This document shows, piece by piece, positions 8,501 through 31,334 of a stretch of 31,334 nt of DNA. The DNA lies in NCBI RefSeq assembly GCF_000003605.2, contig NW_003106595.1, positions 539,069-570,402 of the forward strand. The letters are read 5' to 3'. The stretch comes from Saccoglossus kowalevskii. Lineage: Eukaryota > Hemichordata > Enteropneusta > Harrimaniidae. The notes under the pieces are model-generated. The model was not told the DNA's origin, did no database searches, and saw only the letters and a list, made by a program, of their open reading frames with translations. Every line of letters begins with the position of its first letter. Positions within the stretch are counted from its first letter, which is position 1. The position numbers and the translations under genes are program-made.

Positions 8501-8508
<8 letters not shown>

Positions 8509-8879
8509 ACAGGGAATGTAAATCATGATGAGAGTATGCCGTGGACGAAAATTTCAAAAAAGGTTAATTTTTACCCGTGAAATATATTTTGTTACCCTGA
8601 ACTGATTACCTATAGTAACGCCAACAAATTTTGCAGATTGTACTTCCTATAAGTTGTATAGTGATGAATCAATGGTCATTATATAACCTTGAATCAACGT
8701 GAAAGTGTATTGAAATAAGTGTAATCAAACCCGATTGATTGGATATAATTACTGGCTTATCTGACAGGACCTTTAACGCGTCCGATATGGCATTGGATAT
8801 AACATAGGTAATATAATAAAATATAATAATAAAGTTGTGGGCTGTTAAAGGAGCTATATTCATGTACAGCCCGGGTCAC

Positions 8880-9590
8880 GCTCCATCAAAAGTCGTGGTG
8901 AAGATTCCAGCAGAGACTTACTACGACATACCCCAGACTCCGTTGCCCATATACCAGTTGATGTTCTCCAGGATTCTATTTTTGGGCCATTATTTATTCT
9001 TTTATTAATGCTTTACAGTACAGTGCACATGTTAGGGATTTAGCTTTCAGCGGGTAGAGAAATCGATGACGTTGAGAGAAAACTGCAGTATCCACTACAG
9101 TATACAATATCCAGAATCCAGAATCTAACTAAGTGTCGTATAAAAAACAACTCGAAACCGTCCATTGTCATGCTAAGATATTAGGAGTCAAAATACTGTA
9201 AATGAACATTTTAGCTGGGACGACCAAGTCTCTCACATCCTCAAAAAGTCGGGCATCGCTGTCACCAGATTGAAGAACCTCAGCTAACTTAAAGTGGTTG
9301 CCTTTTTACAAAGCTTTATTTTTACTGAGGCTGCGTTACATTTCAAATTTCAGTCTAGCTTAGCTTCATCTTATTAGAATAATTTTCTTCTTGTGGCTAG
9401 CGTCCATTCCGTAGTTAAACGGCCATTTCGTAATAATTCATTGTATATATACACTAGGCACAGGACGTCGATTTGTAGACGACGTTATAAATACAGGGGC
9501 ACTTATATTTGAAATAACTTACCACATCAAATAACGTTCGTAGCATTAGTGAATTCTTTTAAATATAATTTTAACTGTCTGAGCCGAATT
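8880..9590 (+). pseudogene. Decayed non-LTR retrotransposon (LINE) reverse-transcriptase fragment
   Basis: Near 8957-9015 the plus strand reads VLQDSIFGPLFIL, matching the reverse-transcriptase block usually written GVPQGSILGPLLF. Around 9203-9280 it reads HFSWDDQVSHILKKSGIAV, matching the LxWxxHVxxIxKK region that follows the polymerase in Jockey/CR1/L2-type elements. About 9460-9560 resembles the degenerate C-terminal end of such ORFs. Frames shift and stops interrupt between the blocks, so it is a 5'-truncated dead copy. Its clade and exact ends cannot be set by eye. Confidence 0.75.
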
Positions 9591-10091
9591 CAAATTTGTA
9601 CCTGCTGAGCATGTTACTGCACATGTATGCAATGCATTATGGGAGATACCTGCGTACGAAAGTTGGAGTCAATGTAACAATATTTCACTCGAATACACAG
9701 TTTGATCGGAAAGTTACGTCCAAATATAGTCTCAAGTTATACCCACTCAGTGCTAAAAAGACAAATAAAAATCTCTAAAACGACTCGGAGGATAATGTTT
9801 TTCATTGGACCCCCTTTTGCACTACGCAGATACGTCAAGGAACTGTCTTGCGCACTATGGAACTATTTATAACCTTGGTTTTTTAAACAATAAGCTAATA
9901 TTTATTTTCCGACAAAATATTGGTATATTGGCTCAAAGCGCTATATATCATTTAGGTTTTGGGGTCGGTATATCTGACATAGAGGGCGCATTACCCCAGA
10001 TCAGCTGTAGCCTGAAGATTAGCCTCTTGTCAACAAAACTTTCCTTCCAGGATTTGTAAGCCTTTTTTATATCACTCAACTGAACGATTAA

Positions 10092-10783
10092 AGGGTGGTA
10101 GTCGTCGCGCCACGCATGCGCGAGATATATGGGTCACATATAAACAAAGATGGCGACTTTAACAGTTGCGCAGACCAACGAGTACAAACTGAAAGGTTAC
10201 CAAACTTTAACTAGATAATTTTGTTGGCGATTGGAAGCACAGTCAGCTGGCTCGCACGTGATAATGAAATAAATACGATATTTCCTATATGGGGGCCGCC
10301 ATCTTGAATGACGCATAAAACTAAATAACGGTAACAAAATTCGGCCTAATTCGTCGTTTTTGTGTGGAAAAATCCCTTGCATACGAACACCTAATTACGC
10401 GAAGAACCTAGAACACTGAGCCGGGGTATTTGAAACCGAAATTGTCATCTAAGCGTTAGGCCGTCGCTGATTGGCTGCTGAGCTGGAATGCCAATTTTTA
10501 GTTTTAAATACCCCAGGAAAACTTGTCTCTTATTTAGTTTTATGCGTCATTCAATATAGTCGGCCCCCATATAGTAAATGTCGTATTTATTTTATTATCA
10601 CGTGTGCGCCAGCTGACTGTGATTGGAAGGTATCGAAGGAATCGCCGGTGGTAATTAGTATAAGTGGCGCCCAGAGCAAAACTAATTCTCGTGATTTCTT
10701 TAGAAGAGCACATTGAAATTATAGGAAAATCAATGTTTATCAACACAAATGTCACACATGCGAGGCGCGACGACCACCACCCT
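10092..10783. mobile_element. 692-bp foldback MITE with long inverted arms and TTAA target duplication
   Basis: It starts AGGGTGGTAGTCGTCGCGCC and ends with the inverse of AGGGTGGTGGTCGTCGCGCC; about 28 of the terminal 32 positions pair. It is flanked by TTAA on both sides (10088-10091, 10784-10787). Inside, 10240-10327 is a long near-perfect inverted repeat of 10530-10619. A smaller inner pair is built on GGGGTATTT and AAATACCCC around 10425 and 10510. The whole element can therefore fold back on itself. No transposase frame is present, so it must move in trans. TTAA duplication is typical of piggyBac-type transposases, but these TIRs are not ones I can assign. Confidence 0.85.
10240..10619. 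repeat. Inner inverted repeat of the foldback MITE
   Basis: The left arm 10240-10327 (starting CAGTCAGCTGGC, ending AAACTAAATAA) returns in reverse complement at 10530-10619. This explains why short open frames on the two strands (10197-10382 minus, 10471-10716 plus) carry the same peptide, PPY-KxRIYFIITCxPADC; these are not genes. The left arm contains GCCGCCATCTTG, a match to a YY1-type site. Confidence 0.85.
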
Positions 10784-11079
10784 TTAAGTTACAACCATAT
10801 GGTTTAGGCTTTGATTCTTTTCAACAGCTTTAGTATGTTTTCAGCGTTTTTAGGGGTTGTCACTCATTCCCAACCGTCATAAATGCTGTGGCAACTAGGG
10901 GCATTTTGGCGTGGAGACTTTGCAACATTGTGACGAGTGATGTTGTTTGATGCCTGCGAATGGAAGAAGGCATTTGAGTTGGTTAATATTGCATGTGAAG
11001 GGAGCTTAGTGTTGGTGAAATTAATATCACACATGTATGTGATGTTATACACCATGGATCGTGTTTGAGTATTCACGAA

Positions 11080-11325
11080 GCGTGTGTCACGTGTTTATAT
11101 CTTCTGACGCAACTAACGTCGTTAACGGTTCTGTTCACGCAGTCGCTGTAAATATCGTGTTTGAATATTCTTATTTTCATAAATCCTTGACGATATTCGA
11201 AATTAAACTTGAAATGTTTTGATACCAATATTTTTCAGGAGTAGTTACTTGAAGTAAAGCTCGATCTCGAAGTTCGCGTTCAGTTCAGTTTCATTGTCTG
11301 GTATCGATTACAAATGGTTGCAAAG
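11080..11325 (+). promoter_or_regulatory. Possible upstream promoter and first non-coding exon of gene B
   Basis: A CACGTG E-box lies near 11087. A good 5' splice site (CAAAG then GTGAGC) follows at 11325/11326, with no sizeable open frame. This may be a 5' untranslated exon of the gene coding at 17320-19818. No transcript evidence is available, and the exon start is not defined. Confidence 0.2.
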
Positions 11326-12338
11326 GTGAGCAATTCACACCCCCTCCACGTCGAGTGACTTCTTGACCGTGTCCCGCAGTGTACTTTTTGTTCTTCTAGT
11401 TTACTGCCCTCAACGGCACTTAATCATACTAGTTGTTTTCAATATCTACTGGAAAGCGTGTATTTGGAGGTTAGGCAGTTTTTCAATTGTATGGGTTTAG
11501 ATGTGTAAGTGTATTGTGTTACGAATCAGTAGTAAATAATCCAAACAACGATACTGTGAACTCTCTTGTGCATGTTTCTAAATAAACTACATAGTTATTG
11601 GGAACGAGGACTCATGTTTATATTAGTCGCGAATATATCTATAGCGCTGACTTATTCAAACAATTGGTGACTTACTGTCACACTTAACAAACTGACAGAT
11701 GTGTTCTTGAGAAAATTATGGCAAATTCGACAGTGGTTGATTTCGCGGGGGAAATAGTGCACAGGATCTCGTTACTCCGCAGAGCTCAAGTGCGTGTTCG
11801 CTATTTGAGTTTCGTGGGTACGTTACCATACTGGGTGATGTAGAGTTTGTTATCTTCATGTTCAATTACGCCGAATACAAGTACATTATCACGTGGGGGA
11901 GGAATCTTCAATTATTTCAGCTGCAGGTGTATGGCCTCCTTTCGACGGTGGTAAAGCTCATATTATTCAGTGTTATCTGGAAGTAGAACGAACACAAAAT
12001 CTGGGCATTTCAAACTAACTGGACACAAGTAGTGAAGGTCTGCATTGAAACATCAAAATGGTGAGAATTGTTTGGGAATGAAGATTGCAAACGGAAATAG
12101 CAGGGAAGAATTTAGCTTGAAACTCGTATTTTACGTACTTCCGTAATTTCAGTTAATGGACAATCTCACGTTCGCGTTTTCTCTTGGGAGGATTCGGGGG
12201 AAAGCCCACATGAATATCCTTAAACCGATTACTGTACCCTCATGCCAGAATAAATATCTATATAGGTTGGTGGCGCTGTTTAGCGTGGTTCATTTGTTTG
12301 ACCCACTGTAAAATGGAAAGCGATTCCCTTTTTTTTCG

Positions 12339-12563
12339 TGACGTCACATTGTGTTCGTGATAGGTGGAATAATAGTCTGCATGACAATGGCGGGGGGAAT
12401 GTATTTAAATATGCATGAATGGCGGACCCAACAATGAGAGTGATGTACTGAGTCACGCTGGCATACTGGCAGTGTAAACGAACACACCTCGAAAAAGAGG
12501 ACTTCATAAATAATCTGTACATCTCGTCAATCCACAGAATGTATACTCGCTAGTCTGGACATG
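12339..12563 (+). promoter_or_regulatory. Candidate promoter and 5' untranslated exon of gene B
   Basis: A perfect CRE palindrome TGACGTCA lies at 12339-12346, an AT-rich TATTTAAATAT near 12401, and a perfect AP-1 site TGAGTCA at 12449-12455. A strong splice donor follows (ACATG then GTAAGT) with the exon end at 12563. The order CRE, AT box, AP-1, exon, donor looks like a promoter reading right. Its assignment to gene B rests on orientation and the absence of another plus-strand gene before 17320. Confidence 0.35.
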
Positions 12564-13677
12564 GTAAGTTACTTGTTTCTCACTGTTTCTTTTCCTACTC
12601 ATTCGTGTATTGGACGTTTTATATGAAAAAAAATGCCTGCTTACAAAGTGACGCCATTTTGAAACGTATATCATATGTCGATCGTCAACGCCCAGAACTT
12701 AAATATGTGGATTATAATCCAAGTTAACTCAAAACGTCAAAAAATTATTAAATCACGCATGTATGTATGTTAAACCACGCGCGATTTGCCAATGTCTCTC
12801 CATGCGAATTTACATCGCGTTCTGAATGGGCTGAAAATAATTGTGTTGACCTCCACCTGATGATTCGGCCGGGACGCATACAACGTGTTTATATTTTTTA
12901 AAAGTGACCCAATTTAGTTTCGTAGTCATAGCATGCAGCTGTTTTTTTTTACCTCAATCGTTATATTTAAATCGTTGTTGAAGACTTTGACACGACCTCG
13001 TATTTATAAAAATAACATAAACCCCCCAAAAAGGCTTGATGTAAACGTAATACCAGTATATTGTGTGATGGCCTTGGTGTTTAGTCGAGCAGTGGCATCA
13101 GCCGTCACGGTGTCTGTTTTGTGTATACGACTATGTCGCAAGTAGGCCGTGTTAGAAGGAATGGCCTATATAAAACGAACACGTTACTCGCTTGGCACAA
13201 GTAATTTAAAATACTCTTTGATTCGCGTCGGCTAGCCACCGGTGCTACACACAATACAAGAGGAATCGTTATAGTGAATGAATGTACGTAAGAATAAGTA
13301 TAATTGCAAGGCGTGTGTGACCTCACCGCGCCCAACATTACGAAACGGTACACTGACAACAATGTATACTGCACTAGCTTTAGAAATAAAGCGTCAATTC
13401 TTTCCAAGGTTCTATTTTATTCTTTTATGTCACATGACAGCTAATATAACTGTCTGTAAATGATGTGGTTGTCGCATATGATATTTTACATAATCGTTAT
13501 TTGAAACAAGCCAAGGGTAACATTGTTAGTTTAGGTGCACATAGTCGTACTACTACACAGTACACTTCAAGTTGATATTATCAGAGACGATAGAAATTGA
13601 CCTCCGTTTTGTAATCAACTATCATATACATGTATGATTGGTTTCAAAGATTTAACATGGTCGACGATGACCAGGTG

Positions 13678-13839
13678 CAGTGACGGATCCAGCAAAATGT
13701 ATTTGGGGGGGGGGGTCCAAGCTACGCTTCAGATATACGGATCGTAAATCGCAGAGAAGCTGTGCGTTATCCAGATGATACGAATCGTCATGCGTTTGGG
13801 GGGGCATGGCCCCCCTCGCCCCCTCTGGATCCGCCTCTG
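13678..13839. mobile_element. 162-bp hAT-type MITE with perfect 8-bp target duplication
   Basis: The ends are CAGTGACGGATCCAG and CTGGATCCGCCTCTG, an imperfect inverted pair. Both flanks carry ACCAGGTG (13670-13677 and 13840-13847), the 8-bp duplication typical of hAT transposases. The interior has G-runs near 13706 and 13797 and a C-rich run near 13810. The CAGnGGCGGATCCAG end type is widespread in animal genomes. It is non-coding. Confidence 0.92.
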
Positions 13840-15954
13840 ACCAGGTGGGTGGTTGAGTGGTTGGCTGGAATGGCCATATGATTGCCTGGGACGACTATGA
13901 TATTCAATATTAATGTCATTCTTAATCGGATTTTCTAGAGAGAAAAAAAATGGACGAATGCCATCAATGCCGACAATTCTTTTGGAGACTACTCGAGCTA
14001 TGGTGACTGCAAAGGCAAACCAATTCTGTGATGTTGTATTTTAATGTTATATATATTTGCTAGGCCGTTCAAAATAACCAAGGACACCAACTTTCAACTT
14101 AAAGGCTTTCAATATAAAATAATTAAGTTTCTTTTTAGCTACAAACTATAATTTAATTAAAATGAGGAAAACTATATCGGCGTTGTGCACATTCTGCCAG
14201 TCGGGACTGGAAATAACATAACTTTATTTCACGATTGCATTAGAGTTTTTGGTCACGTTTTGTTAATGGATAAAATACAAAACAGGATGTATGGACTCGG
14301 ACACTTTACGTAGTTACTAGGTAACGATAAACAATGATAGGTAATTTGGATTTCTCTGTAAATTTAGTTATTATTCAAAAATAAACAAAATAAACACAGC
14401 TGCGTTTAGTGATTCCAATAACCTGAAACAAAAGATACAAAACATAAGATTCAAATAACATCAATTTTCTTGTGATTTCAATTTATCACTTTTGAATTAT
14501 GTAGTAATTTACTGACTCAACGTGTCATGTATTTTGTTTGTCCCTTTACTTTTCTGTCTTTTTTTCTGTTTTATATAATACTTCTGCTTGACCTAGATAC
14601 ATAACACGCATTTCAAATGTATATGCTATAATAGGTTTTACTGTAGGTACCTGACTTTATCTTAGCTCAGATAACTATTGGAATCGGTGTGTAGTTTTCG
14701 AGATATGAGTGGGTCATTGAACTGACCGGCGTGTTTTCACGTTTTTTACCAACACACGTCATGATGTGCTGTGTACTCTGAGGCATGCGAATTACCTAGA
14801 TAAAACTAAAAACCTTTGTATGAAAACATGACGCATTTTAGTGAGGGTGTGTGAAAAGATTTCTCCAAGTAGGATTGTTTAAATGTTTGGATAAGAAAAA
14901 TTGGATGACTGAAGGTCCCGAGTGAAAAGTGGACGCCCGAACAAATATACCATGTTCCCCCTCAACCAATACATGGTACCCCGTAATCCAAATCGCGGTT
15001 CCCCATGTCGTTCACCGGCGCAGCCAGACACACAATTGTGGAATGTCACGACAATAGCTGACATTGAACTTAATTATATGAACGCATTTGAACTGTTTGG
15101 ACACAATTGAACTTATGCCCCAATGACGCGAGAAGTTAACGCCTTTTATAGACGGTTGTTTACAACATTGATAAGTCATTTGAATTTTACACCTACTGTA
15201 CCACGTTTGTCGCAACGTCTATTGCTGTTATAGTTACTGTTTAAATGAATCCACAATTTCGACTACAAAATACATGTAAATCGTCAAACATTCGTGGTGA
15301 AAAACTGATATTATGTTTTAAAAATAACCTAACCATGGCAACCGGCCTGTGGTCACTAGAACGCGTCGTGTCAGTGAACTCTTTGGGAAGAAGTGAACTA
15401 TTGGGCGGGATTTTCACATAATTTTTCCCTAATTGAACTTGAGTGTCATCCTCTGATAATAAACAAGTTATCCTTAAGTGTTGAAGACACGTAACATCGA
15501 TGATAATGTATTAATTTGTTTCATTGACACCCCGTGCTAATTTAGCCTACCTCGTATGAGTTGCACACATTCAACGGTAAAGTAAAGCGTGTCCATGGTA
15601 ACATCACACTTCGTACAGTAATCTTATTCGAACAGCGCAGATTTCATTTGTTCTGCTCCTCAGAAACAGTGAATGTCTGTCTGGGTTTTTGTTGTAAATA
15701 GAAAACGCCCATGATGTATTTACATGCGTGAATGATGTACGCAGATACTATAACACGCTATAATCCCATTACGATATTCAGCGTAATAGCTTCCCCGGGT
15801 TCTAATGAGACCCCCTTATACTAAAAACACGACATCCCAGAATCAGTCCTTAGAAAAGAATGCAGTGTGAATCCTTTTTAAAACTATATAAATTTTTATT
15901 TTAAACATTAGGCACCTCACATGATTTATACGTTCTGGTTTCGTTTTATTCCAG

Positions 15955-16018
15955 GAGATCAGGCGATGACGTCAAATTTTATAATTTAGAATATATTTTA
16001 CAACAACAACAACAGCAG
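15955..16018 (+). other. Candidate 64-nt internal 5' exon of gene B
   Basis: A pyrimidine-rich acceptor (TTTCGTTTTATTCCAG) and a strong donor (CAGCAG then GTAAGG) bound 64 nt containing TGACGTCA and an ACAACAACAACAGCAG stretch. One frame is open throughout, ending in Gln repeats, but it does not join in frame to the exon at 17320. I read it as a possible untranslated exon; an alternative or spurious exon is possible. Confidence 0.35.
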
Positions 16019-16614
16019 GTAAGGTAGTTTCCTTTTTATCATGCATCGATATCCTTGCAATTTAAATAATTAATATCCCATTATCGACCACATGACCACC
16101 TTTTCTTGGTCTGTATTGTGAAATTATTATGATACTCGAATTAATTTTATCATTACTCGCAAATACTGGTTCGGAAATAGATGTGTACGAGTTGGCCTAT
16201 ACACATACAATTTTATCGGCGGCAAGGATTCTCCGTGGTCAAATAATACACCTGACGTTCGTCACGGTCTGTGGTAATGTGTAGCCAGTGAGGAGCAATT
16301 TACTTGCCTGCCTTCGTTGAAAAGACTGCCGTCGATCATTGGAGGGAAATTGATTCGGCATGGACGTTCACTGACTGGGAGATTTGCATCTTTTCAAATT
16401 CGGTATAATTACATTTTGACTTTCGTCTTCAGTGGCTTTTTAAAAGAAGCATCCGGACTGTTTCCTTTTTATCTCTACACTTGTGCATACATATTATTAT
16501 TTACTAGTACTAAGTATTGTCACTGTTGTTTTATACAATTGTGTAAACACATAATTTTACCAGGTACCCTAAACCATAGAGTACGACGCGGTCGTTTGTC
16601 GTCCACCGATGATA

Positions 16615-16660
16615 GTGGTGGTGGTGGTGGTGGTGGTGGTGGTGGTGGTGGTGGTGGTGG
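16615..16660. repeat. (GTG)15 trinucleotide repeat
   Basis: An uninterrupted GTG/GGT run of 46 bp. It creates a poly-Gly open frame that is not supported as a gene. Confidence 0.95.
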
Positions 16661-17324
16661 GGAGGGTAAACTAGGTCTAGCTATTCAATGAATCCATCAA
16701 TAATCGTGATAGATTTTATGACATTGCAGAACCACGCGAATGAGACGTTGGCTGTATTTAAATTTCAATGTGGTGTTGTAGCAATATTGGGTTGGTCGCT
16801 GTCAACAACCATCAGTCAGGAACCTGACAAGCCCGAACAATTGTGGACTTGTTAAGGTGGTCGAAATGCCACGTCATGAGTACTGTGAATGGACTCAGAA
16901 ATTATCAATGCCAATACGTTGGTATAGATATGAGCCAGAAACACGACACTGCGATAGATACATCTGTGTGTCCGTTATAATTTCTATACATCAAAACACG
17001 CCCGTTGTGTTGTTTTGCATTTGTTGTATCGTGAGTGTTATGTTGTGTCATTGCCTGGACGTTCATATACCAGGGGGTGTGGTCACATTAAAAAGCTATG
17101 CGCCGTGGTTATTCCTTTGATCTCCGTCTTTTAGGTTGGGCCGATTGTTATCCCTTTCCCTCACTCTAAACTAACAGCCAAGCCTACCAGATCTATTAGA
17201 TCTCTAATTTAGATATTGAATCATGTTTGCAGATGTATTTAAAACTTTGAAGTCCGCTAAAAAAACATACCACTGACATATTATATAATTTTAGCTGTTT
17301 ACGTCGTTTTGATTTTCAGGTAAA

Positions 17325-19818
17325 ATGGATAAAGACACTATCATGATAGTTATTATTACGGTGGCCTGTATAGTGGTCTTCGTTATATTGGTCGTATTTC
17401 TCGTCGTGGCATGGCATGTAATTAAACGAAGGTAAGAAATACAATCGGTCAATATTCATTGAGGGCGCATTCTACAAGAGGCTTGTGTGACAGGTGCTAT
17501 ATATAGTGGTGTTTAATTTCTCAATTAACAAATATATGATTGCATGCAATGCCTATGGTGTACATTTCACGTGGGATCAAGGAGTATTTTATAATAATAT
17601 ATTATTCCCCTCGGCCATAATTTCATAACGTAATACATAAACTTCTTCAACATTTTATTTCAACAGACAAAAAAAGGCAAGGTACGTATAAGCATGTGAT
17701 TTTAGATTTATTTACTTTTGCTCTGTGTGCATGTTCCCATCCTTTTCTTTTTTTGATCCGACACGACAGATGGGCACATTTTCAATTATATAGCGCCCTC
17801 TCGCGACTAAGTCTGTTTTGCTTGAATCAGATAGCTGTTTAGGTTTTATATCCACCACTCTATAGATGTATTCGAATTTTTAAATGTGTGCAACGGGAAC
17901 TCTGCCAGTGAATGACAGGCCATCTCTCTATTGATCTACTACCAGAATACTGAACTTGGGCCACACTCTGACAGACTACTAGAGTAAAACACACACGTCA
18001 CGGAAAATGTTTCTTCATATACCTTGAGTGTATAGACTCCCGGATACACTAATTTGTTAGTTGCTCTTTATAAAACGGCTCTGAAAAAACGGATGTGGAT
18101 CTGGTTGCTTAGCAATTTGGGGGAATGATTTTTCATTTACAACTTGAAACGTTATGGATGAGTGCTAATGACAATTCAAGGAGGGGGGGGGGGCACAATG
18201 ATCATTCGACTATGTTTTGGTCGGAATGGCATATAAACAACAATGGTAGAAAATGATTTTCCATCGATTTACCCAGTCATATTTCCAGAAGAGCTTGCTC
18301 TTAAAAACAAGTAATACATAGAAATAAAAATGTTTGCAATGACTATTCCATGCCAGATAACTCATTGATTCTGAAGTGTGTGAATGACCTGGATCCAGTT
18401 GCTATGACGATAGTATATTTTCAAACATACTTCACCATTGTCAATTAGGATCATTCTGATTCTTTGAGTGAATAAACTATCCAGGACATTATTTCAAAAA
18501 GAAATTAGAACTTGTGTTAATATCTATTCTTGGTAAAAAGAAATATTAATACAGAAGGGCAGCGTAAGTGTTAGTGAGAATAAGAAATTTGTATTGTGAG
18601 CATAGGTCTGTTTTTTCGGAGTACTAGTACCTTGTAGTTTAGTAGTGAAATACACCTGTACACAAAAAGTGGAGTTAATAAATGTGCTTAATTGAAATCT
18701 TATTTTCAAGGTTGCGTACCCTCTTTTTATCTGATTCAGTGTTCAGTTGACACAGTGTGGTCGGCTGCACTTAGGGGGTAACTATTAGTTTACATAATCT
18801 TGTCACAAGAGTGCCAGTTCTCGACAACCCATATTGATCATCCTTCGTTCATTCATTCAGGAACAAAGAAGTTGACGAAATTCAGCATGTGACGGACGTG
18901 GACGAGGTAGACGCTGTCATCAGAGCAGAAGTCGGAAAACACGAACACACTATAACTTCAAACCCAGCGTACGGTAAAGAAGATCTCGTAGAAGCTGAGG
19001 TAAATGACACGTGTTGTTTCACATCCGTTGCAATACCGTGACATTTCGTCATTTCCACCCGACAGTGGCCGAAGTGGTGGTTTTGAACCTAGTCCAGTGA
19101 TGAATATATCAAACCGACGAAATAATGTTCTATGAATCCCATTTTTAGCTGTATGGTCGAGAGATCCGCCACAACTCGTGCCCATAGTTTAGAGCCTTAG
19201 GCCCTCAGCGTCTCCGGTCATTGACTTGGTTTTAAGAGAGAGAGAGAGAGAGAGCATTGTCATTGATGTTGTCTTAACATTATCACAGTTTAAAACTCGA
19301 ACTATCATATGCAATGCAATAATATGTAGTTTTTTTAGATAAATACGAGGGATTAATAAAATAGTACTTATTGCTTTGTTTTTTTGTGTTTTCAGAACGG
19401 CTTGCCATCGGTGCCCGTTGACCTCGCCAGAGAATTTGACGGTGATTTTGAAGAAGGCAAAGAGGTGTCTGAGACTGGTTCGAACTACTCATTCACACCG
19501 GAAAACTTAGAAGATGGCTATAAAAATAAGCTATCAATTTTGGACAAAAACACGTGGGGAGGTGTACACATGAATACGTCAGAAGCAGACGCAGAATTTG
19601 ATTTTAATATGTTCCACCCTATACGTGGGATTCACTCTAAATCGGACGGTAACCTACACAACTCGTCGCTGCAGCGTGGACATCATAATGTGGCGGATCT
19701 TTACGAAGCCGGACAAGCGCTCACCGTGAACGGAGGTTTTCCCGTTACAAATCCCTGTCTCAATAACACTACCGGTTCACGCCTTCTCTGGCAAAAGAAA
19801 CGGTTCAAAAATTTTTAG
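17325..19818 (+). CDS. Gene B: single-pass membrane protein with NPAY cytoplasmic tail, 227 aa, 4 coding exons
   Basis: Family not recognised. Coding exons: 17320-17431 (ATG at 17325, context AAAATGG), 17667-17681 (15-nt microexon), 18861-18999 and 19396-19818; phases 2, 2 and 0 join cleanly. Residues 1-4 are MDKD; about 5-30 form one very hydrophobic helix of mostly Ile, Val, Leu and Phe. KRRQKKAR at 34-41 follows as a stop-transfer signal, placing the tail inside the cell. The tail is acidic at first, then has TSNPAY (73-78), two Tyr at 118 and 129, LSILD (133-137), GLPSVP at 89-94 and LLW at 217-219. NPxY motifs in other proteins bind PTB-domain proteins and clathrin adaptors, so a recruiting or endocytic role is inferred. 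The frame stays open from the ATG back to the acceptor, so an upstream ectodomain exon remains possible. It is a tandem relative of the gene at 23614. Confidence 0.8.
17667..17681 (+). other. 15-nt frame-preserving microexon of gene B
   Basis: ACAAAAAAAGGCAAG sits between a good acceptor (TTTTATTTCAACAG) and a good donor (GTACGT). It adds RQKKA to the basic segment just inside the membrane. The flanking exons join in the same frame with or without it, since AG plus G also gives Arg. It could be a regulated cassette. Confidence 0.7.
19235..19254. repeat. (AG)10 microsatellite in the last intron of gene B
   Basis: A perfect AG run of 20 bp, 141 bp before the last coding exon. Confidence 0.9.
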
Positions 19819-20660
19819 AAATAAAAACTGAAATATATATATTATTTATACGTTCATTTCCGGATTGAACAAGACTTTTTAATATTACATTACATATTAT
19901 TAAAATGGCTTTAGACTATTTATAATATTAATAGTGCTATTACATTTAACAATTACAATTATAACAAATGTAAATAAACTTCCAGAAATAGAAAATTCAC
20001 ATTTTAAAATACAGACTATAAGTTCAAAAGTGGTGATTCATATGCTGTGTGTACCTAGTTGTATCCATGTTCATCTCGTCAATACTGCTTGCTGCCATGT
20101 TTTCTTTGCTTTCTTTGTTCGTTTCCATATTATGATGCTTCAAATTTGACCTTTTATTAACTTTTACCTCATGTTTCAGGAAAAAAAAATTGTTGTATTC
20201 ATAATTTTATTCAAAAAAATGTTACTTAATGTGTAGGGATAGTGAATTGTGTTTATTTGGTAAAAAATGAAGAAAAACACATAAAAAAATGTTTTCGGCG
20301 GTAAATATTACAGTTTTATGTATCTATGTGTACGTAGACACGTCCGTGATATGTTGGATAAGCTCGTCCGATTTGCTGACGTAATAATGCTGCAGTCTAC
20401 CTGATATCTGAGTATTTTCCCAGACTCATTAATCCTTCCATTGTAATGTGTACATTATTTGTTGGTTCGGTGTTTATCAATGATTTCACATTCAGACTTC
20501 TTTACTAATATGTTTATGTTCTTATGTTTTCGTACTGATAATAAGGTTTGTTTTTATCTAAAGCCACCACTTTTACAGTGATGTGGATGAATACTGCCCT
20601 CTACGGAATTTTGTGTTTCGTACATTTTTTCTATGATAATAAATCATTTTATAATAATAA
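19819..20660 (+). other. 3' UTR of gene B with two poly(A) signals
   Basis: AATAAA at 19820-19825 begins two bases after the stop codon, and another lies at 20638-20643. The second is followed by T- and GT-rich sequence (TTTATGTATGTTTCG, later CAGTGTGTGTGC), so the full 3' UTR is probably about 0.85 kb. The first would leave almost no UTR. The stretch is very AT-rich with no coding signal. Confidence 0.5.
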
Positions 20661-22100
20661 TAACGTTGATTTATTTATGTATGTTTCGTTCTTTTGAAAC
20701 CAAATTTGTATTGCAGTGTGTGTGCTTTATGTATAGTGCTCGTTAACAGCCTGTCAGAAGGCTCGTTTTACTTTTAGGACGCTGTGAGTATGTTTTGTTT
20801 GTGGCAATCGACCAAGTGCTTCAAGTCCGCTGCTAAGATGTGATCATGTGTCGGTTCAGTCATCAAGAAGCGTGCGCTGCACTGGTACCATGACGTGACC
20901 ACGAGTCATAAACATCCGGTGACTTGAATGTACATTCTTTTTGACAATAGGGACGTATTGTACTTGTTGTCGAAATTGGCTGCATAAGAATGGGGACACT
21001 GTATAGAGGTTTTCGCGACACAACACCTCCACCACATAATGGGTCGCACTGTTTAATTTGTGCCAAAACAGTAAATCTTCTAAATACACAAGTAGATGCA
21101 TGAAAGTGAACAATTTTAAACTGGTAAACAAATAGTTCAAAACGTAAGGTGAAAATAATCCAAATGTAGGCAGTTCCTCAGTCACTTCCATTTCAATTCC
21201 CTCTCTTTAAAATCCGGTGTGGGCTATAAAAAAATCTTAGTTATGACGAATACTCTAATGATAATTACACGTGACAGGTCGGATTGAAAACTCGTTATAC
21301 GATTAAGTGAAACATAGCATTAACCCTTTCAAATGCTATAGTCCTTAGTTTGGTATGGGTTACGTATTATTTATGTTTCTCCACTTTCGATCATGGCTTC
21401 AACGTCATATTGCTAGTTGGTCATCATTCACTTTATTTCAGACTTCTAAACTGGTCTGACTGGTCTCATTAGGCGGCATGTCCATAGAGCTATGCAATGG
21501 GACCTCCAAGACGAACCGCAGTGATATTACAGTACTCCTGACTGGGAATTAATACCACAAAGTATAAGTTTCACGATTTGTATTTCACACCGTAGGACCA
21601 CTGTATAATACAACATATTAATAGTTGCATGTTGGTGAGATATTAATATCTTTCCCTAATTGATTTCAACTATAGTACCGAGATATGGAAAATCTAGAAT
21701 ATTTGATACAGTGCCAAAAATGTTCATTGTCTGACATTTCTCAGAATCAAATAACCATTACGTGTAATGACAGTTGCACTGAAACTGAATATTGAGAAAT
21801 TAGTAATCGGTATGGCTCTGTTCTGCTTCATATTATTCCCATCACCATGCAACCCCGTTGCTCGGCCCAAGGACACCAATGAAAACAAAACGCTTACACA
21901 CACCGCGTACCGCTTCGCTGGATACGTGGTCAGAGTACATTCTCATTACATTTCCTCACAAAATTTACCTGGAACTTGAATCATGCGAAACAAATGATGG
22001 CGAACTAATTGCGTTTCTGAGAATAAAGGATTTCAGTCAGCTGACTATGGTGGCGCTGGCTGGCGTCATTTCTCTTGCATTTGTGTGACTGTCGCCCACA
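20661..22100. other. Intergenic space between genes B and C
   Basis: No gene supported. A 111-codon ATG frame lies on the minus strand at 20856-21191 (see findings), without recognised family or splice context. The rest is unstructured AT-rich sequence. Confidence 0.5.
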
Positions 22101-22105
22101 TTACT

Positions 22106-22174
22106 CCAATCGGTCGAATACACAAAACGCAGCTGCGACGTCACGTGACCTGTGAAACTAGCGTTTGTGTAAAG
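22106..22174 (+). promoter_or_regulatory. Candidate promoter of gene C
   Basis: A CCAAT box (22106-22110) lies 27 bp before an overlapping CRE-like GACGTCAC (22137-22144) and E-box CACGTG (22142-22147). A splice-donor-like AAAG/GTAGGT comes next at 22174. A stronger donor (ACAAG then GTAAGC) ends a possible exon at 22421. Gene C's coding exon at 23578 opens with a splice acceptor and a UTR, so it needs an upstream untranslated exon. This is the best candidate area. Confidence 0.4.
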
Positions 22175-22753
22175 GTAGGTTTATTACACCACTATAAACA
22201 GGGAACATCTATTTGGAATGAGCGATTTCGTAGCGACAGCTAAGAAAAGCCTACCATCTGAACGATTACTAGTACACAGAGCCTCTCGGTGTTGTAATTG
22301 TGTTCATATCGATGTTCTAACACAAGTGACCTGTGGTTACTAGTATTTGTCAATAACAGTCTCTGGCGCACGTGTCTTTGAACGTTGACACTGGCGAACA
22401 CATTCGTAAATCATCACAAGGTAAGCGTCAACCTCCAATCAATTCATTCCTACGTCGACTCATGGGTCTACGTCTCCATGTAGTAGGGTACTGGCGACTG
22501 GGTGTGTCTGATTGCTTAATCGCCATTGTATGCTATGTATATGATGCGAGAGGGGAAATGTTACCTGGCTTGAAAGCATCATTTCATGTTAGACTGTATA
22601 ATTATATTGAAATGCAAGACTATTAATTCAGTTAAATTAGCCACACGCATATTCATGCGCATGTTCTTTTCGTATGTTTCAATAATATTAACATTAAACT
22701 GCTGACATGGTGTATGTCGTTCGTGCTGAAGTAGGTTATTGCCAAACGACCCT

Positions 22754-22772
22754 GGGGTGGGGTGGGTTAGGG
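22754..22772 (+). other. G-quadruplex motif
   Basis: GGGGTGGGGTGGGTTAGGG has four G-runs with loops of 1, 1 and 3 bases. It lies in the presumed first intron of gene C, on the coding strand. Confidence 0.7.
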
Positions 22773-23613
22773 TGGTGAACTATACTATAGACTATCCTCT
22801 TATCGGCTACATTCATAGCAATATATGGTTAATACCTCGGATGGTGTATAATTTGAACTTGACTTCTAAATATATACAATGAGATTGTATGTACCAGTGC
22901 GTTTTCATATGATGTATTTATTGTATCGCCCGCATGCGCACTGCGTTGTTTTTTACCCAGTCGGACGCATCATCCATGTTTAATTTAGAATATTCAATAA
23001 CAATACGTACCGTATATATAGCAGTATGTTGCCTAAGCAGTCATGTGGTCAACTTCGGTGTCAAGCTCCGGGTGTATGCGCATTCCCCGTTCATTGTGCA
23101 AGGGAAGGGACCGCGATGCCCGGGACGATGGATGGATGTAAGGAGAAATCATGACATACATCAATGTGCCGATATGTACGCTGAATGAAATCGGACATGT
23201 CTTCCGTCAGATTAGCCTAATTCATAATTTTTATATTTTTAAGATTAAGAAAAAAAATTACATTTCCAGAAATGTGCTTGAGCACATCTATAATATCACC
23301 TACCAATACCCGTCCCTTCTCTCCTGGGTGAAGCCTGGGGTACTTCACATCCAATTGAAAAAATAAAATAGAAAGGACGCTTTTTGGCCCAAATATTGGT
23401 TATGGAAGTTAACCCACCCCGGCCTCGACCTCATCAGGCCCCAGAATCTGTTATAGACCACAGTCCCTGAATATGACAATGTTGAGGGACTGTGTATGGA
23501 TACGTCGGAATTTTGGGACACAACTCGTATTATAAAATAAAACCAATCTTCACACCAATAATCATTATTTATCACAGGAACCGCAGTGGAGTTTTGCTGT
23601 CCCAAATTAAGTT

Positions 23614-26050
23614 ATGAATACCGAGTTCTGTTATCGCGGCCGTGGCAATGTAACCAGTCTCTCATGTGAATGTAGCGACAAGCCTCCGGAATTCAAATTA
23701 CCAAAGCCGCAGTACTGTCACGGAGGCAACGCTACGCAAATGGGTAAGATTTGTTTATCACAAGATACGATGTGGGATTGACTTTTTTTTCTTAATTCTC
23801 GGTGAGTCATTAATGTATTAATAATTAAAGAAAAAAACAAACAAATAAATTCTATATATGTATGTGCATATATCCACTCTCTCCTCAAATGTGTTTTTAT
23901 TTTATTTCAGATTCGCAGAATCTCCTCATCGCATGCATCGTCTTGGCCGTACTTTTCATAATAATCATCATAGTGATTGTCGTAATGGTAAAAAAAAGAC
24001 AAAATCAGAGGTAAGATACACACGTGTTTATACCATCGTGCCAATCAGCATGCGAATATCTGATAACAACTGTTGGTTACCGATCTGCAGTGACAATATT
24101 GTCCGCAGGCTTATTCATAAACAGGGACACGTGCATATCATGATGTAATATCAACAGCAACAAACATCGCAGTTATTTTATCTTCGGATACCGAACGACC
24201 GATTGCACGCGCACAAAACGTGAATAAGTGTGACAAATTATAGAAGCAGCAGTATACACAGTGATGACGGATTGTAATACATGATGCCACTATGGTAATC
24301 TAGCCTGACAAAGTCGCGTGAGTTGCGCCCTCCGCAGTGCTCCAAACCCAACACACGAACACGAACGATGTAGTTTTCCACTTCCCCGACGATTTTTTGA
24401 GACTTCACATTTTAATGCCTCTTTCTAAGTACCCTTTGCTAATATTGAATCAAATTGAAATAAATTTCCGTTAATGCTACATATCTCACAGCTGTATCTC
24501 AATTTTCTACCCCGTTGTTTTACAGGAAAGGCGACACGTCAGTGATGTTGAATGCCTCCAGACCAATAACGAACAGTCAGTCAAGTGCGCAACCTCGGTA
24601 TAATATGGACAGGACAGACAACCCAGTATATGAGAGGGATTTGGACAGCGAGGCACAGGTACGCGTCACGAAATAAAGTTAATGTTATCCAGTATAAACG
24701 ATGCAGCTGAGACTGTTTCAGCGGTCTTCCGTGCAATTTAATTTCTGTTGGTCTCCTCTAGTTCATGAACAGAGCAAGTTGGTGAACGTGGCCTTATTTG
24801 TGACATATTAAATTGAATACGAGCAGCAAACGTATTACACAGACACGGTTTGCTTCTCTCCCGACACCGTGACTCATTTGCGCTTTCTAGAATAGTGTTC
24901 GTGTACTCCGGAAAAAGACAATATAATCCGAATGTGACGTACCATTCTTTGTAATCATGTGTTGCTAACGAACACGCCATCTACGTCCGCATGTGGTTGT
25001 TACAGGTTGTGATCATATGAACTTCAAACATTACTATCATGACATAGTCATCACATTGTACTATGGGTAATTCGCATATGAGTAATCCCAAATACCCAGA
25101 TAGTGTAGTATATATGCGGCATATTTACGACCTTTTCTTCCATATACGTGCTGGTATTCATCACATCACAATTACATTGATATATTTAAAGTATCAAGCT
25201 TCATGTAATATTCGTTTTCCTATTATGACATATTGATTTTTATTAACTGATACATGGCCATCGACCGAAGACAGTAAATACGAAACATTTAAATTGTTTA
25301 CAATATTTCAGCGGATTTCCCTCCTAAGTTTCATAGCATTGAACTTGAATACAAAAGCAGCTAAACGCATTTTGAGTTTTAACTAATTCAATAAAATTAT
25401 TTACAGTTGGGTGGGACGCAGTAGTAGTGTGGGATATAGAGACATCTAATATGATTATAAAAGTTACACACTAATAAAAAATGCAACTTATTTTCAATAG
25501 AATTCATATTGCAAAGCTTGCACATGCATTGGCCTCTTTCTAGATCTAGATATTCGTTATGATGTGCAGTCTTGATGGAAATATCTCGTAACAGGGCAAA
25601 ATGATGATGAAACTACTCTCCGAGGCGCGCAATTCCCGGATGTAATATTTTACCTTCTCGACTTTCCAGCAAACATTTACAACTGTCCATACACGCTTAA
25701 AGACGATTTTGTCGAAGACTTTTTTGACTTTACAATTAAAATATACAAGTTTCAAATTATACGCCTTCCAATTAACTTTGCTTTTTCAGAACAAACGAAT
25801 CCAAAATTCTTCGCGTCTCTCCTCGTTAGACGGCCACTCGCTATCCACCCACTATCCGATAGGCACTGACAGAAGTGGCGACAGTGGATTTGTTGACAAT
25901 GCGAACACAGGAGACGATTTCCCGTTAAACAAAATGCCATCTTCACACGAGGAGGAGACCTCCCCTGGTTTCGCTCGAGGGAATGGGATGTTATGGAGGA
26001 ATCAACCCCAATGGCAACAAGGAGTTCAACAACGAACTGCCATGATTTGA
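23614..26050 (+). CDS. Gene C: single-pass membrane protein with Cys-containing outer segment and NPVY tail, 207 aa, 4 coding exons
   Basis: Family not recognised. Coding exons: 23578-23743 (ATG at 23614; in-frame TAA at 23608 fixes the start), 23911-24010, 24526-24658 and 25790-26050; phases 1, 2 and 0. Residues 1-45 hold Cys at 6, 18, 20 and 35 and N-glycosylation sites at N12 (NVT) and N39 (NAT). About 48-70 is a strongly hydrophobic helix, then KKRQNQR. There is no N-terminal signal peptide. The glycosylation sites and basic inner flank suggest a type III orientation, outside N-terminus and inside C-terminus. The tail is Ser-rich with TDNPVY (107-112), LSSLD (131-135), DRSGDSGF (148-155) and MLW (188-190). 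An adaptor or co-receptor role through PTB or endocytic partners is inference. It is paralogous to the gene ending at 19818 by intron phases and shared tail blocks. Confidence 0.8.
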
Positions 26051-26730
26051 ACAAAACTCACCCGGCACTCCCGACACCGAGATGCCAAACTACTAGCGTA
26101 TCTCTTCAAAAGCACCGCTTGATCAGAAAACTGATTCGGTCTTGTCTACCAAGAGCAGTACTTCCTCTCCTTGATGGTGCCCATGAGACTACGGTTTATA
26201 CAATATATTTATGTTTATATTGTTGTCTTTTTTCCGTGCAATAATTTAACTCCAATGTCAGGTCACGTGATGTCAGTGTACCGTATTGTCGATTGTTGTC
26301 GATTTCCATATATATATCTTTATTTATATTGTTGTACATACGTTACTTAAATATATGGGATAGAGCATATAAATGGTAGATTCTACGTTCAGTTGTTTTA
26401 ACTACATGTACACTCATTGGAGCTATTTCATGTATAACTGTCACAGGAATATGCTGCAGACAAAAACAAAAGAATGTGATAGGGATAAAATGTGCGCCCT
26501 CTGCCGGCATATTCAAACTTTTGTTTCGTTTTTCGTGAATTAATATTTTGGTTTGATATATAATTTGAAATAGAAAGGTGTCTATAATAAAATATGGAAG
26601 ATGCTAATTAAACATCTTGACACGAGGCCTGGAAACCAAACTATGCAAATGACAAAACCTGCTTTGTATATACAGCTATTTGATTGCAATGACTAGAAGG
26701 ATGCAATAAAACTAAGTAATAAAATAAAGT
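26051..26730 (+). other. 3' UTR of gene C with poly(A) signals
   Basis: AATAAA signals lie at 26586-26591 and 26705-26710, with further overlapping ones near 26718. No other coding signal was seen. The UTR is probably 0.55-0.7 kb, and alternative ends are likely. Confidence 0.5.
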
Positions 26731-28556
26731 TACGTTGTACATAATATATTTCATAGAATCACTCAATACACTAAACACTATTCATTCCTCTACATTCACC
26801 CGTATTTACTGGGCTTCCTATGTACACACTTTTCTCTGTACGTAATCACAAATCACATTTAGTAACTCTAAGTTTTATTAACAGTTAACCTAACTTTGAG
26901 TTAGTAATAGTTCGAGTTAGTGTCTATTTAGTTTTCAGATTATTGCGGAGAAGACCCACGGACCTACGAAACAATAGGAAGATAACAATGCCATATACCT
27001 GATATGACGTCATACTGATTATGGTGATAGACAGCGCCACCACTCACGATTTTCCAAATGAAATAGAAATTTGTCGGGGAGGGGGAACTTACAGCACCAA
27101 ACGGAAAGTTACGATACAAACGAATGACATTTCATAAACGACATTTTGGCTTCACAGATGCAACATGTACATGTAGTATGCTAAACACAATTCGGCGTAA
27201 TGGAATAAACATGAATTGACATAAAAATAACGTGAAATTTTCAATCATCATTGCGTAAGATAAGTAGAATACTAGTATGAATTTAAAAAAATAACTGTTT
27301 TTATTGAAATAAAATAAAATTTAAAAAAACACAATTTTGAATTGTAAAAATCAAATTAATAATTATATATTTTAATAGTATTGCTTGTCGGACTGGGTGC
27401 CGGACTGCCCAGTGTACAAAATTGGTCTCATTAGAATCAATCCACTGACAGCGGTTTGCAGGTGACATAATTAAAAAGACATTCCGGATAAAACATTGTT
27501 TAAATATGCAATGCCGTCATTTGAAGTTTGACACCAGCAGTCACTGCTGTCCAGCCACTTCATAACAACTTACTTTCTCACTTAAATTTAACATAACTAT
27601 AATACAGGGGATATATTCATGGGTATTTACGACAACAAATGTAGTTACTAAATTTGATTGTCTGCCTTGAAATACAAGGCAAAAACTACACATTTATGGT
27701 AGGGTAAGCTCTGGTTTGTTTAACTGCAAACTCCACGACCATGTCACAATAATACCACACATAAAATAAAGTTGCAACACCTTGCCCATGAAACAGACTT
27801 CTGGCAGACCCACACATTTGAGGGTTAACGGCGGACTTTTTATTGATTTGTCGCCTTTCTTTTGTCTAGATTCACGACGTCGTGCCGTCTTAAAAGCATA
27901 ATAAAACTATGAATTGTATAGCTATGCATTGAGAGTATGGTAAAGGAATTATTGTACTTCATATCTATTCTTTTTTAAATTTATGCATTGGGAGTTGGGG
28001 AAAATGAGTGACTCCGAATCCACATCATTTCCCAGAATGCCCTGCAGTTGATACATTTTACTGTGTTTTTTTCTGTTGAAACAATCATTTCTAATTATTT
28101 TTTAATACTTGACTTGAATCTTTATATTCTCCACATGATACAGATGTATGCGTATATTGTGAAAGCAAGGTATTTCTGTGTTTTTTTCGTGGCTGCTTAC
28201 TTGGGCGGTTATTGACGTATAAGTAAACAATGGCTGCAATGTTTATCACCATTGTCAATCTTTAATGGAAGACTACCGAGCGGGCTATTCGCCAATAATT
28301 ATTAACTTGGTTACACGTTTACAGCTGGACAAGGGCGGCCGAAGATGACCGTGGTCAAAGGGTCATGGTTCATAGCGTTAATTCAACCGCACTATGTGCA
28401 GTTATCAAAAGAAGTTGCGTTTTGCATGAAGGACACGTTTTCGAAAGAAAGTGTAGTTAAAACAAAAATTTTCATATAAACTTCGACATTGAGAAGATGA
28501 AAATCACCCATTCAAACTACACGGGACACAACATAGATATAACTAAAATATCTGAG
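26731..28556. other. Intergenic, no gene recognised
   Basis: AT-rich sequence without a long open frame, recognisable exon, RNA gene or inverted-repeat element by eye. Short A- and T-runs are common (for example around 27295-27370). Confidence 0.5.
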
Positions 28557-28630
28557 TGGCCGATATGGGGATCGAACCCACGACCTCAGCGTTATTAGCA
28601 CCGCGCTCTAACCAACTGAGCTAACCGGCC
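28557..28630 (-). tRNA. tRNA-Ile(AAT), copy 1
   Basis: A 74-nt cloverleaf reads leftward from GGCCGGT to ATCGGCC plus discriminator A. The D arm carries the A-box TAGCTCAGTTGG, the T arm carries the B-box GGTTCGATCCC. The anticodon loop CTAATAA gives AAT, read as IAU after modification. There is no intron. All stems close, with G-U pairs only in the acceptor, anticodon and T stems. The CCA end is not encoded, as expected in eukaryotes. A Pol III terminator (TTTT on the minus strand, plus-strand 28545-28548) follows 8 bases downstream. Confidence 0.97.
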
Positions 28631-29375
28631 AGTTCACGACGACGCTATTGTATTATTCAAATTTAAAAACAAAACGTACATTTCTAAAGAATAATAACAG
28701 TAAAATTATTGCCTGATACATACCTATTTGATAAAAAAGAACACTAAAACATTTTTACTGAGATCTAACCCTCGGACTACACCAGATAAATACTATGACA
28801 AACACTACGTTGTGCAGTTTGACAGACCGTGATTATAAGTCACAGTCACTTTGGGGTGAACATTAATAAATACTAATTAAAAAAAAAATCATTCGCTATA
28901 CGCAGATAAATAAACAAGTTATGAAACATGGCACCTAGTAAATCGACACCTTGTCGGTTTCAAATTTCGATTTTTTACCTTAAAACGCGAAACAAAAATT
29001 TTAGAGGGGATCGGGTGTTACGTTAATAACCATTGTTCATAATCGCTAACTTGATTTTATTCAAAACTGCACTAATCCCGCGTTTTCTGATGATATCCGA
29101 CGATTTCATGAACGAAAATGGCCAGCAGCCAGAATCGAGGGGGATTCGCTCAGAGGTCTGAGTAAATCAAGGAAATTCTCGCTGTTACCCGATTGACTGA
29201 AATGAGTATCATGCGCACTTGATTTAAAGATATTTAATGCAGTTTAACTACATCCAATTTTAGGTTGCATTTGTATATAGTTTGTTAGTCATTTTTGAAG
29301 GCCAGTTTGTTACCCTTGTGATAAGTTGTCCCCTATTTCAAAACAGAAAACCTTATATTGAAACAAAACATTGAG

Positions 29376-29449
29376 TGGCCGATATGGGGATCGAACCCAC
29401 GACCTCAGCGTTATTAGCACCGCGCTCTAACCAACTGAGCTAACCGGCC
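29376..29449 (-). tRNA. tRNA-Ile(AAT), copy 2
   Basis: Identical over all 74 nt to the copy ending at 28630, with the same anticodon, A-box and B-box. The terminator TTTT (plus-strand 29365-29368) lies 7 bases past the 3' end. Both flanks resemble those of the copy at 30758-30831, so these two arose by a duplication larger than the gene. Confidence 0.97.
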
Positions 29450-29570
29450 AGTTCACGGAATTATAGATGCACTGGTAAGTTTTAAAAACTAAACTTAGTT
29501 CAAAAACTGTGAGAAGAGTCGTAGTTTACTGATACTCAAAGTAAAACAACGTAAGTCATCGTAATTTGCT
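29450..29570. repeat. 5' flank of tRNA copy 2, duplicated at 30832-30957
   Basis: Blocks such as AGTTCACGGA, TTCAAAAACTGTGAGA and AGTAAAACAACGTAAGTCAT recur in the same order at 30832-30957, with small indels between them. This is the upstream side of the minus-strand tRNA genes. The similarity continues on the other side of each tRNA for roughly 70-90 bp. Confidence 0.8.
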
Positions 29571-29740
29571 GCTAACATATGACAACAAATAGACGCAATG
29601 CGTGCATACATGCCAAAGATCGCATTTCAAACTGTATTGACTTACGATAATGATATCGATAAACGGGAGTTTAAATATGTTCTTGTGCTGTTTTAATCAG
29701 GACAGCGCTCATGGTAACTATTAAATAAATGCGAATTTAT

Positions 29741-29754
29741 GTGTGTGTGTGTGT
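29741..29754. repeat. (GT)7 dinucleotide run
   Basis: A short perfect GT run between tRNA copies 2 and 3. The remaining sequence from about 29571 to 30670 shows no gene. Confidence 0.9.
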
Positions 29755-30757
29755 CCCCAACGCCATCCACGTTTATGATCAATATTAAACCTCAGACAAT
29801 AAAATAATAGTATGAGATTAAAAAAATGCGACTTTGTTTGTGTGTGCTCCAACCCTATATACACATAAGTATTGGATTCAACGGTGACTGGTTGGAGGAT
29901 TCACGATGAGCATGAAAGGTACATTGTATGTGTGAAGCTGGTACCTATGCTCCAAAATTGGGAAAAGCCTCTAAACACGTAGTACTCGTCGCCTTTAAAA
30001 TGTCACTCCCTATGTTACACCACTCTGACATGATAACGATGACAGTCTGGCTTCGATTTTTCCCTTTTTAGAATATACTTAGTATACCCATTTTATACTC
30101 ACTAAAACAGAAAATACGAGATGTTGTCATGAAGTGAAAAAATAATTAATCAACCCAAATCCAAAGCTGCTTAATTAACATTTATGAAGCTAATATATGG
30201 TAACACAGAGAAATAATAAGCTCAACAACTTTGAACTGAGCAATAAGCTATACAGTTCAATCACAGATTTCACTAAATTTTGTTCTCTTTGTATGACACG
30301 TTACCATTTATTGGTAATAGCAAAGTACTTTTGAATATTCCCCAATGTCAGAATTTTAGACAATTCAGCGAAATCATCGCACATAAATATCATCTTATAT
30401 GACGGATATATATATCATTCATAAAGGCCAATGGAGTGATACAAGTGAAATTAATATAATATTTATAATCATCACATAATTTACACAATAGTTTTTTTAT
30501 TTTGCACTATTTTATCCGGATGAAATGACTTTACACAAACATGCTTTTAAACGTCCAGTTTATAAAAAAAAAATACAAAAGAATCATGACTCTCTGAATC
30601 ATAACCACTTAAACAGACCATTTTCTCTGATATTTCGCAAAATATACACATCAAAATGCGTTACGTATTGGCCAGTTCAAAGATACTTATAAACTTTTGG
30701 GAATATTTTTCCCCTATTTGAACGACAGGAAACGTAACATTGAAACAAAATTTTGAG

Positions 30758-30831
30758 TGGCCGATATGGGGATCGAACCCACGACCTCAGCGTTATTAGC
30801 ACCGCGCTCTAACCAACTGAGCTAACCGGCC
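30758..30831 (-). tRNA. tRNA-Ile(AAT), copy 3
   Basis: The third identical 74-nt copy, anticodon AAT. The terminator TTTT (plus-strand AAAA at 30747-30750) lies 7 bases past the 3' end. The spacing from copy 2 is 1382 bp and from copy 1 to copy 2 is 819 bp, so the array is irregular. Confidence 0.97.
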
Positions 30832-31015
30832 AGTTCACGGAGATATAGCTACACTGTTAAAGATTTAAAAACTAAATCTAGTTCAAAAACTGTGAGAAAG
30901 ACCAATAGTCAGTTGTTAACTGATACTCAGAGTAAAACAACGTAAGTCATCACAACTTTCTGCAGGTGCAGTCAACGAAGCTGTTCGTGCAAAAAGTGTT
31001 CGCGAACGTTTTTCT

Positions 31016-31180
31016 GTGGGCAGGCAAAATTTAATTTAATCAGTGGGAGGGAGAAAAATTTGACTTAATATTTTGGGGAGTGGGTGTGGGTAATGCATTT
31101 TTGGAAGTGGGCAGGCAGAATTGTAAACATATGGTGGGCAGAAAATTATAACTATCAGTGGGTAAAAAGGAACTTGTGGT
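31016..31180. repeat. Degenerate ~27-bp tandem repeat with GTGGG starts
   Basis: GTGGG motifs begin at 31016, 31043, 31080, 31107, 31134 and 31158, with spacings of 27, 37, 27, 27 and 24. The best units read GTGGGCAGGCARAATT. Because 27 is divisible by three, the minus strand shows a repeating Leu-Pro-Thr peptide. I regard this as repeat-derived rather than a gene. Confidence 0.6.
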
Positions 31181-31221
31181 TACAATATCGGGAGGGAGAA
31201 TATAGAGATAATACCCGTAGA

Positions 31222-31334
31222 ATCCCGATGAATCGTCAGGTTGCCAGATTGGGTCAAGCGAGGTCAGTTGTGTCTTTGATATGATGAACGCCACCAAACA
31301 GCGAAGAGTTCAGTGCGACGAAGAAGCCGACAGG
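31222..31334 (+). CDS. Possible partial exon or gene start running off the window
   Basis: A plus-strand frame is open from 31222 to the window end, with two ATGs at 31281 and 31284 followed by NATKQRRVQCDEEADR. Upstream in the same frame the peptide reads SSGCQIGSSEVSCVFDM after a TAG near 31216. An acceptor-like ACCCGTAG precedes it. Composition becomes more coding-like and less AT-rich towards the edge. The family is not recognised; it may be chance. Confidence 0.22.

Follow-up and report, generated by a model that had tools for sequence, protein, structure and literature searches.

The stretch of DNA analysed here, referred to below as the window, comprises 31,334 nucleotides and has the appearance of AT-rich animal DNA, probably that of an invertebrate, with long introns (G+C 0.37, CpG observed/expected 0.97). 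Its first gene, designated A, encodes an SLC5-type sodium-coupled transporter and occupies positions 2015-7747 (about 2.0-7.75 kb) of the + strand. Fourteen exons of gene A were placed by hand, and its first coding exon was not found during this placement. The product of 13 of the 14 exons, joined, gave its best match to the sodium-dependent multivitamin transporter (E 3.4e-82), followed by sodium/iodide cotransporters (E 2.2e-64 and 3.3e-64) and sodium-coupled monocarboxylate transporter 1 (E 2.2e-63). Two further gene models, B and C, lie downstream of gene A, all three being on the + strand, and it is these two that are the subject of the present analysis.

The window also carries several repeats. 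A GTATT repeat of about 21 copies (4396-4500) lies within the transporter gene, and a GTG repeat of about 15 copies (16615-16660) is found upstream of gene B. The element at 10088-10787 is bounded by 44-nt terminal inverted repeats (84% complementary), carries further inverted repeats (64 and 38 nt) in its interior and is probably a non-autonomous DNA transposon. The short element at 13678-13839, possibly a small repeat element, contains a G-run, and its inverted ends of 15 nt match imperfectly. On the minus strand three copies of tRNA-Ile(AAT) with identical letters are located at 28556-28630, 29375-29449 and 30757-30831; their flanks have diverged, copies 2 and 3 retaining some common stretches.

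The coding sequence of gene B (17325-17431, 17667-17681, 18861-18999 and 19396-19818) specifies 227 amino acids. Its membrane exon (17320-17431) follows a CAG acceptor ahead of 17320, contains the predicted start codon (ATG at 17325) and leaves in phase 2 through the donor AAG/GTAAGA (10.4 bits). The frame is open 5′ of this ATG as far as the acceptor. The next block, a putative optional mini-exon of 15 nt and five residues (17667-17681, donor 9.5 bits), is frame-neutral, and omitting it yields a protein of 222 amino acids with the frame kept. The tail exon (18861-18999) is entered in phase 2, left in phase 0 and ends with TSNPAYGKEDLVEAE; the last coding exon (19396-19818, including the stop codon) is an open frame. 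Across the joined exons, the two other frames contain 11 and 18 stops versus none in the 227-codon frame.

Gene C is built in a similar way from the segments 23614-23743, 23911-24010, 24526-24658 and 25790-26050, which together encode 207 amino acids. The start exon (23578-23743, the upstream acceptor being placed by eye) has its ATG at 23614, an in-frame stop just upstream of it, and leaves in phase 1; it encodes a 43-residue N-terminal segment with four Cys residues. The membrane exon (23911-24010) is entered in phase 1 and left in phase 2, the tail exon (24526-24658), ending with TDNPVYERDLDSEAQ, has the phases of its counterpart in gene B (2 in, 0 out), and an open frame including the stop codon forms the last coding exon (25790-26050). 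The alternative frames of the joined exons hold 15 and 6 stops, versus none in the 207-codon frame.

In models B and C together there are six introns, each of the GT-AG type, with donors of 7.1-10.4 bits as scored with a metazoan donor matrix. The lengths of 227 and 207 amino acids given by the first-pass annotation were thus recovered as open spliced frames on GT-AG introns. Codon usage was scored with gene A as the training set, a hydrophobic transporter with unusual residue make-up, and the outcome was given little weight. The score per codon was -0.097 for gene B and -0.212 for gene C, and neither was separated from 72 non-coding open reading frames of the window (mean -0.175, sd 0.093). 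This test is uninformative or slightly negative and lends no support for coding.

The most conspicuous feature common to both proteins is located at the end of the tail exon, where gene B encodes TSNPAY and gene C TDNPVY, that is T-[S/D]-N-P-[A/V]-Y. In both genes the Tyr of the NPxY motif stands exactly 9 residues ahead of the donor. TSNPAYGKEDLVEAE and TDNPVYERDLDSEAQ, each followed by Asn across the boundary, can be aligned gap-free as far as the phase-0 donor, with 6 of the 15 pre-boundary residues identical. The tail exons are of nearly equal length (139 nt in gene B, 133 nt in gene C). Six-frame translation of the window gives seven NPxY words; a scripted search of both strands for exon-like frames (acceptor, phase 2 in, phase 0 out, donor) retained two of the seven, those of genes B and C.

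The settings of the chance tests were chosen after the motif and the real exons were known, and their results are to be read as post hoc. In dinucleotide shuffles of the + strand of the window with the phases fixed, two such NPxY exons occurred in 0 of 1000 shuffles under strict or loose splice sites (mean 0.002 fixed-phase NPxY exons per shuffle), and a separate run of 300 strict fixed-phase shuffles likewise gave none with two. With any phase allowed, at least two NPxY exons were obtained in 4 of 1000 shuffles with strict sites and in 22 of 1000 with loose sites. The donor-anchored block scored 28, whereas its shuffles averaged -8.8 (sd 7.3); for the 15-residue block a best-length test gave p 3e-4 against shuffles, again post hoc. 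An NPxY word alone arose by chance in 1.2% and 1.7% of the shuffles of the two tails. The common tail exon of this phase and motif, to which the first-pass annotation had drawn attention, is present in both genes, and two such exons exceed what fixed-phase shuffles yield.

Outside this block the resemblance fades. The tail exons alone aligned at p 0.03-0.04, and neither the whole tails (p 0.27 local, 0.33 global) nor the last exons (p 0.67 global, 0.85 local) aligned better than shuffles. In a single BLASTP comparison the two proteins matched at E 4e-4 over the membrane segment and the block; when either was run by tblastn against the whole window (E ≤10), the other gene was not listed. The tblastn runs returned, as regards further copies in the window, only the own exons and matches at E 1.7 or worse. 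No nucleotide similarity was reported by blastn between 16001-19900 and 21501-26300 at E ≤1. The motifs LSxLD and [L/M]LW, claimed earlier as common to both last exons, are indeed present in both but in different places (LSILD at 46-50 of 140 residues in B, LSSLD at 10-14 of 86 in C). Each motif alone is rare in shuffles (0.2-1.6%), but was picked after the fact, and the single word on which the last exons agree in 4 of 5 positions is what chance would give (0.67 expected, P 0.42). Given this value and the alignment p of 0.67 and 0.85, the last-exon motifs were rejected as evidence of kinship. Since last exons and whole tails do not rise above shuffles, it is the gene plan and the 15-residue block that carry the case for common descent.

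Each protein has one predicted transmembrane segment (19-residue Kyte-Doolittle maximum 3.62 for B and 3.87 for C) with a basic patch C-terminal to it. In both proteins the segment is preceded by a net charge of -1; the charge that follows it is +6 in B and +4 in C. According to the positive-inside rule the positively charged flank of a membrane segment stays cytosolic, and because the positive charge lies C-terminal of the segment the tail is placed inside. The NPxY block would then sit about 41-49 residues inside from the membrane. About 6 residues of B and about 43 of C are predicted to face outwards, the latter with four Cys residues and two N-glycosylation sequons (NVT and NAT). The statement that almost nothing lies outside the membrane hence applies to B but not to C.

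The region upstream of each membrane exon was inspected for additional coding exons. A simple scan for signal peptides encoded by one exon with a phase-1 end returned one weak candidate per gene, none of them convincing: 16908-17076 for gene B (donor 7.2 bits) and a candidate of 14 residues for gene C (donor 5.4 bits). Possible phase-1 coding first exons are 16866-17076 (7.2 bits) and 11718-11817 (6.2 bits) for gene B, and 23026-23137 for gene C, with a donor of 7.3 bits versus 7.1 bits for the chosen exon. The stretch 16866-17076 (+) is open, with several Cys residues, a hydrophobic run and a mediocre donor to the B membrane exon, and 23026-23137 (+) consists of 37 open codons with four Cys residues and a phase-1 donor at its end. 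Between genes A and B there are four donors of at least 9.5 bits, the strongest at 16018 with 12.3 bits; the interval from B to C has two, of which the one at 22420 scores highest (11.1 bits). Some of these strong intergenic donors could end non-coding first exons of B or C. Entry of the membrane exon in phase 1, as described previously for both genes, could be shown for C only; in B the exon itself contains the ATG, and no coding exon upstream of it was convincing.

Pfam (E ≤0.1) detected no ectodomain family in 7600-17501 or in about 19800-26161, each read in its three + frames, and the four weak matches below cut-off in these frames (DUF4136, HTH_64, FeoB_associated, DUF4064) do not include an ectodomain. 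The minus strand of 7600-17501 contained no Pfam family at E ≤0.1, and the five frames scanned for 26001-31334 (three + and two minus) no Pfam ectodomain. As neither a known ectodomain nor a convincing signal-peptide exon was detected upstream in these scans, an orientation with the N-terminus outside, the C-terminus inside and no cleaved signal peptide (type III) is favoured for both predicted proteins.

Neither protein was assigned to a family. No Pfam model reached its cut-off for B or C, and the PDB offered nothing closer than the ErbB2 and APLP2 membrane segments (E ≥0.56), which is consistent with the earlier view that no named family has this layout, "known family" meaning here Pfam above cut-off and PDB sequence relatives. 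The best Pfam match was TMEM154 (PF15102; cut-off 30.3 bits), with 22.9 bits and E 8.4e-5 for C and 17.3 bits for B; the piece of C made up of membrane and tail exon matched at E 6.7e-5. A first control seemed to speak for kinship: the three whole-tail shuffles scanned, of four made, gave 11.6 bits, 9.8 bits and one unlisted result (E ≤1), versus 20.7 bits for the real tail. When only the tail exon of C was shuffled, 20 of 20 shuffles matched at E ≤5 (4.2e-4 for the first member), and the best of them (6.2e-7) surpassed the real piece. Kinship with TMEM154 was rejected on these grounds, and the match is best read as composition. A viral origin was likewise rejected: for the last exon of B, the only one searched in this way, three pattern matches in viral contigs left none confirmed, and Pfam matches to baculovirus membrane proteins stayed below cut-off. 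Among the matches listed, the open-licence literature on the motif, TMEM154 and amnionless does not describe such a protein pair.

The reading we tentatively prefer, while giving it somewhat less than an even chance, is that B and C are real, spliced and presumably expressed tandem paralogues, forming a type III pair whose NPxY block may dock a PTB adaptor, or an SH2/PTB adaptor once phosphorylated. An old tandem duplication, as proposed by the first-pass annotation, is supported by the phases, the tail-exon length, the common strand, the adjacency and the end-anchored NPxY block. Two unrelated membrane proteins that came to share NPxY and the intron phases by chance or convergence would account for whole tails and last exons aligning no better than shuffles and for the window tblastn not linking B with C; the motif itself also arises in the tail shuffles at the frequencies given above, and at least two NPxY exons in 22 of 1000 window shuffles at the loosest settings. 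Nevertheless, identical phases, the identical 9-residue spacing to the donor and exons of 139 and 133 nt would all have to coincide, and two such exons appeared in 0 of 1000 shuffles with the phases fixed, so that we regard unrelated origins as unlikely. Hardly more probable, and still rather unlikely, is that both models capture just the 3′ portions of larger receptors with overlooked ectodomain exons, the tail then belonging to an endocytic or scavenger receptor of the usual kind. Membrane exons of modular receptors are commonly entered in phase 1, coding could extend upstream from the open frame 5′ of the B ATG, and the three possible phase-1 first exons have donors of 6.2-7.3 bits. Against larger receptors speak the lack of an ectodomain family in the + frames of 7600-17501 and about 19800-26161, the transporter gene A on the same strand, which bounds B upstream, and the in-frame stop just ahead of the C ATG.

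The remaining alternative concerns the tail. NPxY motifs recruit PTB-domain adaptors, and the endocytic form [FY]xNPx[YF] is read by ARH, Dab2 and Numb, according to PMC6912373; the NPxY form of the LDL receptor is FDNPVY (PMC4584282). The block could be a classical clathrin signal of the LDLR type, with B and C working, like amnionless, as co-receptors in endocytosis. In favour of this proposal are the NPxY in both tails and the case of amnionless, a partner whose tail carries the motif (PMC6912373 and PMC8710305). The endocytic consensus is absent from both proteins, however, as Thr occupies its first position (-5 from Tyr), and neither tail has a YxxPhi or a cytosolic dileucine motif. Because of the Thr at the Phe/Tyr place and the lack of these two signals, docking through phosphotyrosine or through a PTB site of the non-aromatic kind is rated above a classical clathrin signal, and we consider the LDLR-type proposal quite improbable.

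If the paralogous type III pair is taken as the working model, the cytosolic tails of B and C would be long, polar and probably disordered, with the NPxY block as a putative docking site for a PTB-domain adaptor, or for an SH2 or PTB domain after phosphorylation of the Tyr. Each protein may lend its signalling or trafficking tail to a postulated membrane partner and so serve as a co-receptor. C might make small extracellular contacts of its own through the Cys-containing segment; for B, contact with a partner would be possible only within or very near the membrane.

A bolder version, which we hold doubtful, is that B and C belong to an undescribed, fast-evolving invertebrate docking family in which only the non-aromatic T-x-NP-x-Y block at the intron boundary is kept and which would lend a phosphotyrosine/PTB site to postulated membrane partners. 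If the pair is real, it would represent a small membrane family with one adaptor-docking motif as its sole visibly constrained part; it would be a convenient, uncomplicated setting in which to study which parts of a tail are preserved by selection, and an example of PTB-type docking that dispenses with the aromatic residue. For now, B and C are two orphan-like genes, unexplained though hardly startling.

In comparison with known systems, TMEM154 resembles C in having one membrane segment, a basic patch and a polar tail, but C remains below the cut-off of 30.3 bits and its real tail falls within the range of its own shuffles. Integrin beta tails use NPxY without an aromatic residue at -5. They share the motif with B and C (PMC6912373 and PMC4584282), whereas no integrin model was among the Pfam matches listed and no PDB integrin match was obtained at E ≤10. 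Receptors of the LDL type are likewise one-pass proteins whose cytosolic tail has an NPxY motif; B and C differ in having Thr at the Phe/Tyr position, and the Pfam scans found no LDLR-type ectodomain for them. Amnionless has a larger ectodomain of its own, and its model was absent among the Pfam matches listed (18 of 18 for B, the best 25 of 28 for C). It lends an NPxY-type tail, with two such motifs, to cubilin (PMC6912373), and a membrane protein lending such a tail to a partner is, by analogy, what B and C may be.
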